Positions 11,212 through 59,770 of a DNA stretch of 64,000 bases are shown in pieces. Under the pieces are notes generated by a model. It was not told the origin of the DNA. It was given only the letters and a program-made list of their open reading frames with translations, and made no database searches. The position numbers and the translations under genes are program-made. Source of the stretch: Streptomyces camelliae (GTDB lineage: Bacteria; Actinomycetota; Actinomycetes; Streptomycetales; Streptomycetaceae); contig NZ_CP115300.1 of NCBI RefSeq assembly GCF_027625935.1, positions 6,634,001-6,698,000 on the forward strand, given 5' to 3'. Positions within the stretch are counted from its first letter, which is position 1. Every line of letters begins with the position of its first letter.

Positions 11212-11325
11212 GGTCATGAGTGACAGCCTTCAGGCCCCGGCCGGCTGTCCGGCAACCCTCCGTCCGTGGCGGGGTGCCCCGGGTGAAGACCAGGTCGTAG
11301 GCAGAGAGGTCTACGGCAAGCGCGG
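11212..11325 (+). ncRNA. SAM-IV-type S-adenosylmethionine riboswitch
   Basis: The core (11212-11291) opens with GGTCATGAGTG and closes with GGGTGAAGACC, forming P1. Inside are the SAM-family conserved pieces CCGGCAACCCTCC and GGGGTGCCCCGGG. A downstream hairpin, CGTAG (11296-11300) with CTACG (11311-11315), fits the extra 3' stem of the SAM-IV class, known from Actinomycetales upstream of sulfur genes. The next full gene is the cysteine desulfurase-like protein at 11470. SAM binding would be expected to lower expression. From 11073 to 11211 nothing else is seen. Confidence 0.85.
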
Positions 11326-11348
11326 ACCCCTCGATCAGCCAGGGGTCC
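11324..11348 (+). promoter_or_regulatory. Hairpin just after the SAM-IV aptamer
   Basis: GGACCCCT (11324-11331) pairs with AGGGGTCC (11341-11348) across a 9-base loop. It may be part of the riboswitch expression platform. No U tract follows, and the ribosome site of a short ORF begins 11 bases later, so control could act on translation. Confidence 0.5.
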
Positions 11349-34371: not shown

Positions 34372-35160
34372 GTGTTGTACGGCACGATGAAGGTCGCCAT
34401 CGGAGGACCGCTGAAGGTCGCCTTCAGGCCCTGGGTGGAGGGGCTGGAGAACATCCCGGCCGAGGGGCCGGCCATCCTGGCGAGCAACCACCTGTCCTTC
34501 TCGGACTCGTTCTTCCTGCCCGCGGTCCTGGACCGCAAGGTCACCTTCATCGCCAAGGCCGAGTACTTCACCACCCCGGGCGTGAAGGGCCGGCTGACGG
34601 CGGCCTTCTTCAAGGGCGTCGGCCAGCTCCCGGTGGACCGCTCCGGGGCGCGCGGCGCCGGCGAGGCCGCGATCAAGAGCGGCATAGAGGTGCTGGAGCG
34701 CGGCGAGCTCTTCGGCATCTACCCCGAGGGCACGCGTTCGCCCGACGGCCGGCTCTACCGGGGCAAGCCCGGCGGCCTCGCGCGCGTGGCGCTGGCCACC
34801 GGCGCGCCGGTCATCCCGGTCGCCATGATCGACACGGAGAAGATCCAGCCGCCCGGCAAGGTGATGCCGAAGCTGATGCGGCCCGGCATCCGGATCGGCA
34901 AGCCGCTGGACTTCAGCCGCTATGCCGGCATGGAGCACGACCGCTTCGTACTGCGCGCCCTGACCGACGAGGTCATGTACGAGATCATGAAGCTCTCCGG
35001 CCAGGAGTACGTCGACATGTACGCGACCGCCGCCAAGCGGCAGATCGCGGAGGCGGCGAAGGCGGCCAAGGAGGCCGACAAGGCGGAGAAGGCCGAGAAG
35101 GCCGACAAGGCGGAGAAGGCCGAGAAGGCCGAGAAGAAGCCGGAGTCTCAAGGGGCTTAG
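34372..35160 (+). CDS. 1-acyl-sn-glycerol-3-phosphate acyltransferase (PlsC-like)
   Basis: Makes phosphatidic acid from lysophosphatidate. The 262-residue protein has the acyltransferase motifs NHLSFSD near 38 (NHX4D) and YPEGTRS near 121, plus a later VPV-like segment APVIPVAM. GTG at 34372 follows GGGAGG. The C-terminal 45 residues are a Lys/Glu/Ala repeat built from DNA repeats (KAEKAEKADKAEKAEKAEKK), not part of the fold. It is followed by a dispersed structured repeat and then macS. Confidence 0.93.
   Translation: MLYGTMKVAIGGPLKVAFRPWVEGLENIPAEGPAILASNHLSFSDSFFLPAVLDRKVTFIAKAEYFTTPGVKGRLTAAFFKGVGQLPVDRSGARGAGEAAIKSGIEVLERGELFGIYPEGTRSPDGRLYRGKPGGLARVALATGAPVIPVAMIDTEKIQPPGKVMPKLMRPGIRIGKPLDFSRYAGMEHDRFVLRALTDEVMYEIMKLSGQEYVDMYATAAKRQIAEAAKAAKEADKAEKAEKADKAEKAEKAEKKPESQGA
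35080..35139 (+). repeat. Tandem GAGAAGGCC-type repeat in the acyltransferase tail
   Basis: Nine-base units of the form GAGAAGGCC / GACAAGGCG repeat about six times and encode EKA/DKA triplets at the C-terminus. Such repeats vary in number by slippage. Confidence 0.7.
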
Positions 35161-35220
35161 CAGAGGGGCTGTGGGGGGACCGGGGGAGATGCCCAAGCGT
35201 GAACGCGAGGGAGCCGCAGG

Positions 35221-35315
35221 GCGCGCCGGTGGCGAGAGCCCGGGCGCGCGGAGGCCCGAAGGGTTGAGCACGGTCGGGCTCTCGCCAATGGCTGGAGCGC
35301 CCGGAGGCGGACGAG
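35221..35315 (+). repeat. Dispersed structured repeat, copy A (before macS)
   Basis: About 88% identical to copy B at 59675-59770 in the same orientation, with a 39-base core identical (35246-35284). GGCGAGAGCCCG (35231-35242) pairs perfectly with CGGGCTCTCGCC (35275-35286); an inner CCCGAAGGG and a 3' CGCC-GGCG hairpin (35298-35309) follow. It lies 18 bases before the macS start. I do not recognise it as a named RNA family. Confidence 0.75.
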
Positions 35316-35332
35316 CCAGGCAAAGGGGCGTC

Positions 35333-36520
35333 ATGCGGATGTCGGTCGAGCTGCCGCTGTGGCGCGCGCTCGCCGGTTACCGCGTCCTGACCATGCTGTA
35401 CGCCATCGGCCTGTGCGCGACCGCGTACTCCCACTTCGTGCGCCCCTGGGTCGCCGTCGCCTACTACGCCGTCCTGGTCGTGTGGACCCTCGCCACCCTG
35501 CCCAGGGTGGCGAACGAGGCCGCCTGCACCAAGCGCTTCCTCGCCGCCGACCTGGCCGTCGCCCTCACCGGCATCCTGCTCACCCCGCTCGCCGACAACC
35601 ACGAGCGGATCGCGACCGGCGGCCCCACCCTGCCGTCGATATGGACCGCCGGCTCGGTGCTGGCCTTCGCCATCAAGGGCGGCTGGCGCTGGGCCGCCGT
35701 CGCATCCACCGCCGTCGCCGCCGTCAACCTGGTCGAGCGCGGCCGGCCCGCCCGGGACACCGTGCACAACGTGATCCTCGTCTGGGTCGCCTCCATCGCC
35801 ATCGGCTACGTCGTCGAGGTCGCCCGCGCCTCCGAGCGCACCCTGGCCCGCGCCCTGGAGATCGAGGCCGCGACCCGGGAGCGGGAGCGGCTCGCCCGGG
35901 ACATCCACGACGGCGTGCTCCAGGTGCTGGCGATGGTGAAGCGCCGGGGCACGGCCCTCGGTGGCGAGGCGGCCGAGCTGGGCCGGCTGGCCGGGGAGCA
36001 GGAGGTGGCGCTGCGCACGCTGGTCTCCGGCGGCCTGGTGCCGGTGTCCCGGGTGTCGCAGGACGCGGCCGCCGGAGCCGTCGTACGGGCAGTCGAGGAG
36101 CCGGAGGACGACGGTCCCGTCGATCTGCGCTCCCTGCTCGCCCCCTATGCGTCCGGGCGGGTCAGCCTCGCCGAGCCCGGCGCCCCGGTGCCGCTGCCGG
36201 CCCTGGTGGCGCGGGAGCTGGCCGCGGCGGTCGGCGCCGCCCTGGACAATGTCCGGGTGCACGCGGGCGAGGAGGCGCGGGCCTGGATCCTGGTCGAGGA
36301 CGAGCCGGACGGGATCATCGTGAGCGTCCGGGACGACGGCCCCGGCATCCCCGCGGGCCGGCTCGCCGAGGCCGAGGGCGAGGGGCGGCTCGGGGTCGCC
36401 CAGTCGATCCGGGGCCGGCTGCGCGACCTGGGCGGCAGCGCCGAGCTGAGCTCCGTCCCCGGGCAGGGCACGGAAGTCGAACTGAAGGTACCGAAGAAGG
36501 CGAAGGCAGGGCGTCGATGA
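35333..36520 (+). CDS. macS: MacS-type sensor histidine kinase
   Basis: Sensor kinase of the MacRS two-component system, known in Streptomyces coelicolor to affect morphology and actinorhodin. The 395-residue protein has about five N-terminal membrane spans (about 12-165) forming the MacS sensor region, then a HisKA_3-type dimer domain with His192 in ARDIHDG and an ATPase domain with DDGPGIP and GEGRLGVAQSI. ATG at 35333 follows AAAGGGG. It overlaps macR by 4 bases. A structured repeat sits in its upstream region. Confidence 0.92.
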   Translation: MRMSVELPLWRALAGYRVLTMLYAIGLCATAYSHFVRPWVAVAYYAVLVVWTLATLPRVANEAACTKRFLAADLAVALTGILLTPLADNHERIATGGPTLPSIWTAGSVLAFAIKGGWRWAAVASTAVAAVNLVERGRPARDTVHNVILVWVASIAIGYVVEVARASERTLARALEIEAATRERERLARDIHDGVLQVLAMVKRRGTALGGEAAELGRLAGEQEVALRTLVSGGLVPVSRVSQDAAAGAVVRAVEEPEDDGPVDLRSLLAPYASGRVSLAEPGAPVPLPALVARELAAAVGAALDNVRVHAGEEARAWILVEDEPDGIIVSVRDDGPGIPAGRLAEAEGEGRLGVAQSIRGRLRDLGGSAELSSVPGQGTEVELKVPKKAKAGRR

Positions 36521-37194
36521 GCGAGCGGCAGGACCCGATCAAGGTCATGGTGGTGGACGACCACCCCATGTGGCGCGACGCGGTCGCCCGGGACCTGGCC
36601 GAGTCCGGCTTCGAGGTGGTCGCCACCGCCGGTGACGGCGAGCAGGCCGTGCGCCGCGCCAGGGCCACCGCCCCCGACGTCCTCGTGCTGGACCTGAACC
36701 TGCCGGCCAAGCCCGGCGTCCAGGTGTGCAAGGAACTGGTCGGCCACAACCCGGCGTTGCGCGTCCTCGTGCTGTCCGCGAGCGGCGAGCACGCCGACGT
36801 CCTGGAGGCGGTGAAGTCCGGCGCGACCGGCTATCTGCTGAAGTCGGCCTCCACCGAGGAACTGCTGGACGCCGTGCGCCGTACCGCCGTCGGTGACCCG
36901 GTGTTCACGCCGGGCCTCGCCGGACTGGTCCTCGGCGAGTACCGCCGCCTGGCCTCCGAACCGGCCCCCGCCCCGGACACCGACGAACCCGGCGCACCCC
37001 GGCTGACCGACCGGGAGACCGAGGTGCTGCGGCTGGTCGCCAAGGGACTGAGCTACAAGCAGATCGCCGAACGCCTCGTCATCTCGCACCGCACGGTGCA
37101 GAACCACGTCCAGAACACCCTCGGCAAGCTCCAGCTGCACAACCGGGTCGAGCTGGTGCGCTACGCCATCGAGCGCGGCCTCGACGACGAGTGA
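36517..37194 (+). CDS. macR: MacR-type NarL/LuxR response regulator
   Basis: Response regulator partner of MacS, 225 residues. The receiver domain has VVDDHP, phospho-acceptor Asp59 in VLDLNLPA, and a lysine in YLLKSAS. A LuxR helix-turn-helix at about 160-220 reads LTDRETEVLRLVAKGLSYKQ. ATG at 36517 overlaps macS (ATGA). It is expected to bind DNA when phosphorylated by MacS. Confidence 0.95.
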   Translation: MSERQDPIKVMVVDDHPMWRDAVARDLAESGFEVVATAGDGEQAVRRARATAPDVLVLDLNLPAKPGVQVCKELVGHNPALRVLVLSASGEHADVLEAVKSGATGYLLKSASTEELLDAVRRTAVGDPVFTPGLAGLVLGEYRRLASEPAPAPDTDEPGAPRLTDRETEVLRLVAKGLSYKQIAERLVISHRTVQNHVQNTLGKLQLHNRVELVRYAIERGLDDE

Positions 37195-47577: not shown

Positions 47578-48740
47578 GCGGACTGCTCCTGGAGGACGGC
47601 GTCGGCGCCGAAGCGCTGCGGGGTGAACGGACGGGCCTCTTCCGGCAGTTCGCCGTCGGCCAGCAGCTGTGCCATGACATCGCCGGTGACCGGCGTGAGC
47701 AGCACCCCGTTGCGGTAGTGCCCGGTGGCCAGCAGCAGCCCGTCGAGCCCGGACGGGCCGAGCAGCGGCGCGTTGTCGGGCGAACCGGGCCGCAGCCCGG
47801 CGCGGGTCTCGGTGAGCGGCAGCTCGGTGATGCCCGGCACCAGCTCATGGGCGTCGCGCAGCAGCTCGTACACGCCACCGGCGGTGACCGTCGTGTCCCA
47901 GCCCAGCTCCTCGCTGGTCGCGCCGACGACCAGCTCGCCGTTCTCCCGGGGCACCAGATACACATGGCCGCCGCGGACCATGGCCCGCACGGTCCGGCTC
48001 AGGAACGGCGCGTACCGGCGCGGCACCGTCAGCCGCAGCACCTCTCCCTTGACCGGCCGCACCGGCGGCAGCAGCCCCTCGGGCACTCCGGCGAGCCGGC
48101 CGCTCAGGCTCCCGGCCGCGAGCACCACCCGCCCCGCGCGCAGCTGTGTGCCGTCCGCCGTGGTGACCCCGGCGGCCCGGCCGCCCACGACGTCCAGCCG
48201 CTCGGCCCACGCGCGGTGGAACACCACCCCCGCCCGCTCGCACGCGACCACGAGGGCCGCGGCCAGCCGCCGCGGGTCGATCTGGTGGTCGCCGTCGACC
48301 CGCAGCCCGCCGCGCACCCCGGGCGCCAGCATCGGCTCCAGACGCCGGCACTCCCGCCCGGACAGCCACTCCGACTCCAGGCCGGAGCGCTGCTGCAGGG
48401 CGTGCAGTTCGCGCAGGTGGGCGCGGTCGTCGGCGTCGAGCGCGACCTGGAGGGTGCCGCAGCGGCGGTAGCCGAGGTCGTGGCCGGTCAGTTCGGTCAG
48501 CTCCGCCGCGAAGGCCGGATAGCGGCGGGCCGACTCCAGGTTCAGGGCGAGCAGGGTCTCCTCGCCGTAGTGCAGTTCGGTGACCGCGGCCAGCATCCCG
48601 GCCGCGACCCGCGCGGCCCCGCCGCCGGGTTCGGGGTCCACCACGGCCGGGGTGAGCCCGCGCTGCGCCGCGCGCCAGGCCGTGACCAGGCCGATGATTC
48701 CGCCCCCGATGACGAGGACGTCGGACGTACGTGACGACAT
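47574..48740 (-). CDS. thiO: Glycine oxidase
   Basis: FAD enzyme that oxidises glycine to the iminoglycine used by ThiG in aerobic bacteria. The 388-residue protein has the dinucleotide loop VIGGGIIGLVTAW at the N-terminus and C-terminal RPGSPDNAPLLGP with ATGHYRNGV. ATG at 48740 is preceded by AGGGAGGGG within the TPP riboswitch tail. First gene of thiOSG. Confidence 0.95.
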   Translation of the reverse strand: MSSRTSDVLVIGGGIIGLVTAWRAAQRGLTPAVVDPEPGGGAARVAAGMLAAVTELHYGEETLLALNLESARRYPAFAAELTELTGHDLGYRRCGTLQVALDADDRAHLRELHALQQRSGLESEWLSGRECRRLEPMLAPGVRGGLRVDGDHQIDPRRLAAALVVACERAGVVFHRAWAERLDVVGGRAAGVTTADGTQLRAGRVVLAAGSLSGRLAGVPEGLLPPVRPVKGEVLRLTVPRRYAPFLSRTVRAMVRGGHVYLVPRENGELVVGATSEELGWDTTVTAGGVYELLRDAHELVPGITELPLTETRAGLRPGSPDNAPLLGPSGLDGLLLATGHYRNGVLLTPVTGDVMAQLLADGELPEEARPFTPQRFGADAVLQEQSA

Positions 48741-48752
48741 GGGCGTCCAGCC

Positions 48753-48841
48753 CCTCCCTTCGCCGGCATGACCCGGATCAGGTTCGTACGGTCGGAGGCC
48801 GCCAGCCTCCCTCTCAGCCCGGTGCGCCGGGCTCCCGCGAG
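48753..48841 (-). ncRNA. TPP riboswitch
   Basis: On the minus strand the THI box reads CTGAGAGGGAGG, then CTGATCCGGGTCATGCCGGC and GAAGGGAGG close to the thiO start. A GGAGCCCGG/CCGGGCT stem opens it. These are the two conserved TPP-binding halves. The element should shut off thiOSG when thiamine pyrophosphate is plentiful. Confidence 0.96.
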
Positions 48842-48949
48842 TGCGTGTACGGGGGCCACCCTAGCCCGCCGCGCCCGCCACCCGTAAGAGAGCCCCCGCC
48901 CGCCGCCCGGCGTACGGGCGGTGTGGAGCAGGTCACCGAGTACGCCCGG

Positions 48950-59088: not shown

Positions 59089-59649
59089 ATGGCCAACCCG
59101 TCCGCCGCCGCCCGCCGGCGCCGCGCCACCGGCCCTGCCCCCTCACTGACCGGCCCGGCGAGCGACGTGCACCCCGTGCTCCGCCGGACCACGGCCCCGC
59201 CCGCCGCCCTCGACCTGCTCGCCCAGGCCCGCGCCGGACTGGCGGAGGCCGCCGTGCTGGACACGCCGAACGAGCGCTATGCCACGGCCCACCTCGCCGC
59301 CCTGCGCACCGCCGCCGCCGTGCTCGCCGCCCGGGGCCGGCCCGAGACCAACCCGCGCCGCCGTGCCCGGATCCGCAGCGCCTGGGAAGTACTGCCCGAG
59401 ATCGCCCCCGAACTGACCGAGTGGAGCGCCCTGTTCGCCGCCGGGGCCGCCCGCCGCGCCCGCGCGGAGGCCGGCATCCAGGGCGCGGCGGGACAGCGCG
59501 ACGCCGACGACCTGATACGCGACGTCGAGATGTTCCTGCGCATCGTGGAGCGGCTGCTCGTCCTCCAGCCCGTCCTGCCCCAGCCCCGCAGGGACACGGG
59601 GGAACCGCCGGGTGCGAATGCCCCGGGTGACCTTCCGGACGCGGGCTGA
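59089..59649 (+). CDS. SAV_6107-family HEPN domain protein
   Basis: A 186-residue protein with an all-helical HEPN-like domain (LDLLAQARAGLAEAAVLDTPNERYATAHLAALRTAAAV, about 40-80) and a basic N-terminus (RRRRATGP). HEPN domains are common in RNases and toxin-like proteins, but the RXXXH catalytic motif is not evident here. ATG at 59089 follows AGGAGG. Its stop lies 25 bases before copy B of the structured repeat. Function unknown. Confidence 0.85.
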   Translation: MANPSAAARRRRATGPAPSLTGPASDVHPVLRRTTAPPAALDLLAQARAGLAEAAVLDTPNERYATAHLAALRTAAAVLAARGRPETNPRRRARIRSAWEVLPEIAPELTEWSALFAAGAARRARAEAGIQGAAGQRDADDLIRDVEMFLRIVERLLVLQPVLPQPRRDTGEPPGANAPGDLPDAG

Positions 59650-59674: not shown

Positions 59675-59770
59675 GTGCGCCGGTGCCGAGAGCGCGAGTG
59701 CGCGGAGGCCCGAAGGGTTGAGCACGGTCGGGCTCTCGACACCGGCTGAGAGCGCCCCGGAGGCGAACGA
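59675..59770 (+). repeat. Dispersed structured repeat, copy B (before the methyltransferase gene)
   Basis: Second copy of the element at 35221-35315 in the same orientation. An outer GCCGGTG/CACCGGC stem (59679-59685 with 59740-59746) is perfect in this copy, and the inner CGAGAGC/GCTCTCG stem is kept, while copy A keeps a longer inner stem; changes on both arms suggest selection for pairing. It ends 51 bases before the promoter at 59821. Confidence 0.72.

Follow-up and report, generated by a model that had tools for sequence, protein, structure and literature searches.

Among the described systems closest to the element studied here, the Rickettsia palindromic elements (RPEs) appear, in excerpts of the papers cited, as stem-loops of 105-146 bp that lie between genes and are also fused in frame within genes (PMC2229807; PMC10969869), and one of these fusions, in guanylate kinase, has been shown there to be translated and active (PMC2229807); coding palindromes of Wolbachia are known here from a reference title alone (PMC10969869). 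The excerpted text on REPs describes repeats that measure 20-40 bp and carry GTAG or CGTC as a tag, some of them inside genes, and CGTC repeats without known transposase (PMC3733652), while the bacterial MITEs (Correia/NEMIS, ERIC, RUP) are presented, likewise in excerpt, as small, non-autonomous elements with strongly folding transcripts (PMC2229807). Our searches of the open-licence literature found no description of an element such as the one below in Streptomyces, and no Rfam curated family matched above its gathering score at the element, the two matches of the window lying elsewhere; the initial annotation, which had no family name for it, agrees with both. Matches to Rfam at a permissive threshold (microRNA and C4) had scores at chance level only and were rejected. 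Rfam also places a SAM-IV riboswitch (11212-11328, plus strand) and a TPP riboswitch (48738-48848, minus strand) in the window.

The window, i.e. the whole stretch of 64,000 nucleotides that was analysed, carries two similar copies of this element, A and B, as had been noticed at the outset, with a longest identical stretch of 39 bases (35246-35284 and 59700-59738). The features to which we refer are:

34372 to 35160, plus strand: open reading frame upstream of macS, by its sequence a probable acyltransferase-like gene
35189 to 36520, plus strand: macS, 443 amino acids, with DUF5931, HisKA_3 and HATPase_c; codons 7-47 are the element, the start is kept among orthologs and the reading frame is open through the element
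35206 to 35328, plus strand: copy A, complete inserted element (empty site GAGCG^CGTCATG in relatives vs. filled site GAACG[123 bp]CGTCATG)
35213 to 35308, plus strand: hairpin, with pairs 35213-35215/35306-35308 and 35219-35224/35297-35302, a variable long arm from 35226 and an apical hairpin 35253-35257/35261-35265; same structure on 79 copies
35246 to 35284, plus strand: 39-base core common to copies A and B (exact sequence comparison)
35318 to 35328, plus strand: 3' purine-rich tail of copy A, AGGCAAAGGGG, inside the insert according to the empty-site comparison; such tails were counted across copies
36517 to 37194, plus strand: response-regulator-like open reading frame overlapping the end of macS, presumably macR by its position
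59089 to 59649, plus strand: gene upstream of copy B, 186 amino acids
59659 to 59779 (right boundary approximate), plus strand: copy B, intergenic (model match, 112.6 bits)

Comparison of filled and empty sites in relatives defined the inserted unit of copy A as 35206-35328, comprising 123 bp or 41 codons, which corrects the bounds of 35221-35315 in the initial annotation; the covariance-model match on this copy covers 35206-35323 with 95.2 bits. At the macS insertion, the only precise site, no target-site duplication was seen, with ends that are ambiguous by 1-2 bases (CG^CG), and copy A has no TA ends. From ATG 35189, macS of the window reads MPKRER, followed by 41 element-derived residues and then VMRMSVE, and the N-terminus of MacS in relatives is mostly M[A/P]KRERV(M)RMSVE, beginning a few bases 3' of a G-rich ribosome-binding site. 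Given that all 30 fetched macS loci have an in-frame start farther upstream, preceded by a G-rich ribosome-binding site and mostly giving M[A/P]KRERV or something very similar, and that the codon at ATG 35333 is ATG in 15 of these 30 loci but GTG, CTG, GTA, GTC or ATC in the other 15, the true start of macS is most likely ATG 35189, thus positioning the element within the gene. This comparison shows that copy A entered macS, as counted from the inferred N-terminus, between codons 6 and 7, in frame and with the frame left open, so that only copy B conforms to the earlier description of both copies as lying between co-directional genes, copy A being inside the macS frame. We retain the earlier name MacS for the protein, whose domains are in keeping with a sensor kinase. 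It is predicted to have 41 additional residues ahead of its DUF5931 sensor domain, and the predicted peptide of the insert includes EGAAGRAGGESPGARR.

With a macS match in 60 of 61 genomes and 30 loci fetched for comparison, the covariance model identified the full element in one fetched locus, that of the window itself; G024 gave 15 bits where the element would be expected, and its sequence there looks like an in-frame insert that has become shorter. For copy B, the match of which begins 9 bases past the stop of the gene before it, a strong model match was present in one of 30 fetched loci (gene present in 37/41 genomes; region displayed for 20 of those 30). A nuclease-like gene, matched in 58 of 61 genomes, harbors a full in-frame copy in one of 30 fetched loci (G009) and shortened in-frame remnants in the window's own genome (G000) and in G028, the former located at G000:C1:5819355-5820377 (L188). 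Since the full copy is absent from the orthologous sites compared at these three loci, and occupies different places in different genomes, we surmise, with a probability of roughly 85%, that copy A represents one insertion of a ~120-bp non-autonomous mobile palindromic element of Streptomyces and that no switch has evolved here for macS.

The long arms and small loop visible at first sight were confirmed, the small hairpin being CCC-GAA-GGG. Over 131 nt, the RNA folds at -79.3 (copy A) and -76.9 kcal/mol (copy B), with z of -4.3 and -4.4, and 0/200 dinucleotide shuffles matched this stability for either copy. Among 79 copies, 97.7% of cells pair and two-sided changes are found in 20 of 38 pairs; the covariation score is 0.197 vs. 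0.088 in shuffles, with 0/500 shuffles (which ignore relatedness) reaching any of five measures, and sliding the partners by 1-3 columns lowers pairing to 31-39%. Because the 32-base search pattern fixes the apical part (columns 45-76) of the named-copy alignment, apical conservation carries no weight as evidence. In the 12 copies that were obtained free of this pattern, two-sided changes occur in 15 of 38 pairs, and the proposal that changes between copies fall in paired arms of a conserved fold is therefore strongly supported by covariation in both sets. As for the strand, G-U cells outnumber A-C cells both in the 26 pairs that the pattern does not touch (61 to 11) and in the 12 copies obtained free of it (25 to 6), which identifies the sense strand as the one that folds; this asymmetry points away from mere palindrome repair of DNA and fits RNA and single-stranded DNA alike. 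As DNA, too, the sense strand is well folded (z -4.2 and -3.9, vs. -3.3 and -2.5 for the other strand).

Two further features recur across copies: 1) a basal loop with G-N-A opposite G-N-A, with G in 76/79 and A in 75/79 on one side and G in 73/79 and A in 74/79 on the other; 2) an A-rich and then G-rich tail 3' of the hairpin, in which an A-run of at least 4 is seen in 29/73 copies vs. 1/73 control stretches and motifs resembling a ribosome site in 27/73 vs. 6/73. The U-run of an intrinsic terminator does not follow the hairpin in these 73 copies, where A- and G-rich sequence is found instead (T at most 0.26 at positions 9-24).

Copies within genes are not confined to macS. The named set comprised 121 copies in at least 120 loci, of which 17 copies were too near an edge and 104 were usable; among the matches listed, 10 of these 104 were fused to open reading frames as called by a home-made caller, supplemented by homolog comparison for some of the in-gene cases, and all ten lay in sense orientation, in two of the three sense frames, with two of the fused frames terminating within the element. 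A phosphotransferase-like (APH-like) protein has 46 residues where the solved structure 9o56 has 5, i.e. exactly 41 extra; the alignment of an EgtC-like protein falls into two parts flanking the element (85 residues vs. 28 in 4zfj, which is not exact), and Hen1_L was also matched in two stretches, split at the element. Counter to strict sense use, a gene on the minus strand at L163 runs antisense into a copy and terminates there, and the final bases of the element are touched by a few genes on that strand. When 110 copies were grouped by flank similarity into 80 loci, sense exceeded antisense by 29 to 10 in co-directional intergenic settings (p 0.003), the remainder being divergent (17), convergent (13), in open reading frames (9) or unusable (2). 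Replication strand showed no bias, at 19 vs. 22 among 41 stronger copies of nine genomes, with the origin assumed to be mid-chromosome and weaker copies (e.g. 5 of 9 rows in G063) excluded. At L071 and L276, the element starts at the stop codon of a gene that, by its sequence, we take to be tpiA-like (triosephosphate isomerase-like), the element's own TGA serving as the stop. At L051 (G000:C1:6294100-6301100), a metallopeptidase-like gene carries, fused close to its C-terminus, a remnant of 46 bases in which just the two element ends are left.

By blastn, the element was found in 9 of 21 genomes including its own, all of one genus, which we infer from named records to be Streptomyces; the matches in two of the nine (G001 and G005) are weak and not element-like in appearance. 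Weak blastn matches (L008, L009 and L016) were left out of the alignments, and L007 was taken out after alignment A1, before A2. A covariance-model search of Streptomyces genomes, as the initial annotation had advised, was run with a model made from 12 copies: 30 of 61 genomes of the genus carry the element, some table rows being opposite-strand shadows of true copies. Across the order, the element was matched in 37 of the 84 genomes belonging to the genus and in none of 15 from four other genera; across the phylum, 4 of 149 match, namely two of the genus and two with weak partial matches (G206 and G227, 28-30 bits). In named genomes, the sequence pattern matched at least 120 stretches, and the 80 titles listed are all Streptomyces except for one 'Actinobacteria bacterium'; one step of the comparison drew on 77 of the 120 named loci. 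No match was found in phages with copy A or in plasmids with copy B as query. The copies have a G+C content of 67-79%, and some lineages contain longer composite units. The highest copy number, without shadow rows, is 17 in G066, in which mosaic arrays combining full copies with 5' and 3' parts (L084, L147, L150 and L154) suggest nested or tandem amplification; G042 has a tandem array with a period of 129. At L060, L168, L181 and L182, the middle of the element holds a further palindrome (GGGGGTCCCCCCGCTCGAGCGAAGCCGAGAGTGGGGGAG and variants) within the long arm.

The initial annotation saw the element as standing before macS, in position to control the kinase. An attenuator, riboswitch or protein-binding leader would accord with the strong conserved fold, with a complete copy that in Streptomyces canus (L229) was inserted independently shortly before the macS start, within ~20 bp of the site in the window genome, and with a 3' half of the element upstream of macS in G030; however, the element lies within the macS frame, the full copy is absent from the other 29 fetched loci, copies flank or enter unrelated genes and Rfam offers no match, so that cis-regulation of macS is largely refuted and in our judgment very improbable. 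Even less credible is an unchanged protein, produced by removal of the insert from the macS transcript or by ribosomes that bypass it, for although the hairpin is very stable and the in-ORF copies are sense-only, removal does not require that the frame be kept, yet both the 123-nt length and the openness are kept, remnants shrink in frame in two genes and copies in other genes are read in two different frames. We thus return to a mobile palindromic element, the insert of which would be translated as part of MacS, and which in this strain may alter MacS or its expression. Such an element might persist selfishly by virtue of a stop-free sense strand, with sense insertions surviving in tolerant places of genes, and between genes it might be tolerated owing to the missing U-run after the hairpin together with the purine-rich, ribosome-binding-site-like tail. 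We speculate that a putative enzyme acting in trans recognizes the folded strand, as single-stranded DNA or RNA, and moves the element.

As to what that enzyme might be, Y1_Tnp is found in 14 of 61 genomes and RVT_1 in 24 of 61, both being somewhat commoner in carriers, without significance: the element occurs in 9/14 genomes with Y1_Tnp vs. 21/47 without (Fisher p 0.24), and in 15/24 with RVT_1 vs. 15/37 without (p 0.12). Neither a Y1 transposase nor a reverse transcriptase qualifies as an obligatory partner, each lacking a match in several carrier genomes, and because neither is found in every carrier we assign no partner enzyme. A REP-type element, recognized as single-stranded DNA by a RAYT/Y1 (HUH) transposase, would be in keeping with a dispersed palindrome, mosaic arrays, a sense strand that folds well as DNA and CTAC (reverse complement GTAG) at the 5' end in 8/73 copies vs. 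7 hits in 146 control stretches (p 0.10), but we consider it doubtful, as G000, G066, G040 and G042 have 7, 17, 7 and 8 copies (opposite-strand rows removed) and no Y1_Tnp match, the size is ~3x that of REPs and a clear tag is absent, with CTAC/GTAG or CGTC seen in at most 8/73 copies near the 5' end and at most 5/73 near the 3' end. A retro-element, in which a reverse transcriptase in trans copies the sense RNA (SINE-like), seems to us similarly unlikely. The excess of G-U over A-C, the tail of A- and G-runs with its A-runs of at least 4, a sense bias that follows transcription and not replication, and some solitary 3' halves with tail (L092 and L031) are all in line with copying from RNA, as is an excess of 3'-half over 5'-half matches (87 vs. 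63 in six genomes), but this excess is smaller in G066 (35 vs. 29), is swollen by nested and tandem copies, was counted on at most 40 candidates in several genomes with a 5' query that opened with a lineage-specific stretch, and includes G063 copies split into two 3' pieces; G040, G042 and G057 (7, 8 and 4 copies) have no RVT_1 match, and a target-site duplication was not seen. A wider possibility, which we hold only tentatively and rate as improbable, is that the element spreads via sense-strand RNA or a transcription-coupled single strand, by a SINE-like or otherwise new mobilization system in Streptomyces. Spread through RNA would be consistent with a strand-selected structure, a homopolymer A/G tail and insertions oriented along transcription, and a portable readable frame with a ribosome-binding tail would suit operons and proteins.

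The mobile palindromic element favored here would extend in-frame, structure-conserving mobile palindromes beyond Rickettsia and Wolbachia to the large genomes of antibiotic producers. Judged from sequence, it is predicted to alter conserved proteins, including the MacS kinase, an EgtC-like amidohydrolase and an APH-like kinase, and it misleads the annotation of gene starts; in addition, the strand-specific fold and the sense bias render its mode of movement directly testable in genetically tractable hosts. Compared with the known systems as presented in the excerpts cited above, it resembles the Correia/NEMIS, ERIC and RUP MITEs in being small, non-autonomous and strongly folding (PMC2229807), but these are mostly A+T-rich with TA ends and target-site duplications, whereas copy A is G+C-rich and shows neither. 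With REP/RAYT systems it shares dispersed palindromes, some within genes (PMC3733652), in contrast to which it is ~120 bp long, has no clear tag and is carried by genomes that include those without a Y1_Tnp match. The RPEs come closest, having in common a length of ~105-150 bp, a long stem-loop and dispersal both between genes and in frame within unrelated genes (PMC2229807; PMC10969869): the Streptomyces element measures 123 bp, occurs in 30 of 61 genomes and is fused in frame in macS, the nuclease-like gene and the genes of the APH-like, EgtC-like and Hen1_L proteins. It differs from RPEs in its Streptomyces host, its G+C content of 67-79%, its GNA/GNA basal loop and its purine-rich 3' tail, and the two are likened by description only. 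By this analogy, a likeness in kind, the family may work as RPEs do, and it appears to constitute an undescribed Streptomyces family of RPE-like palindromes.
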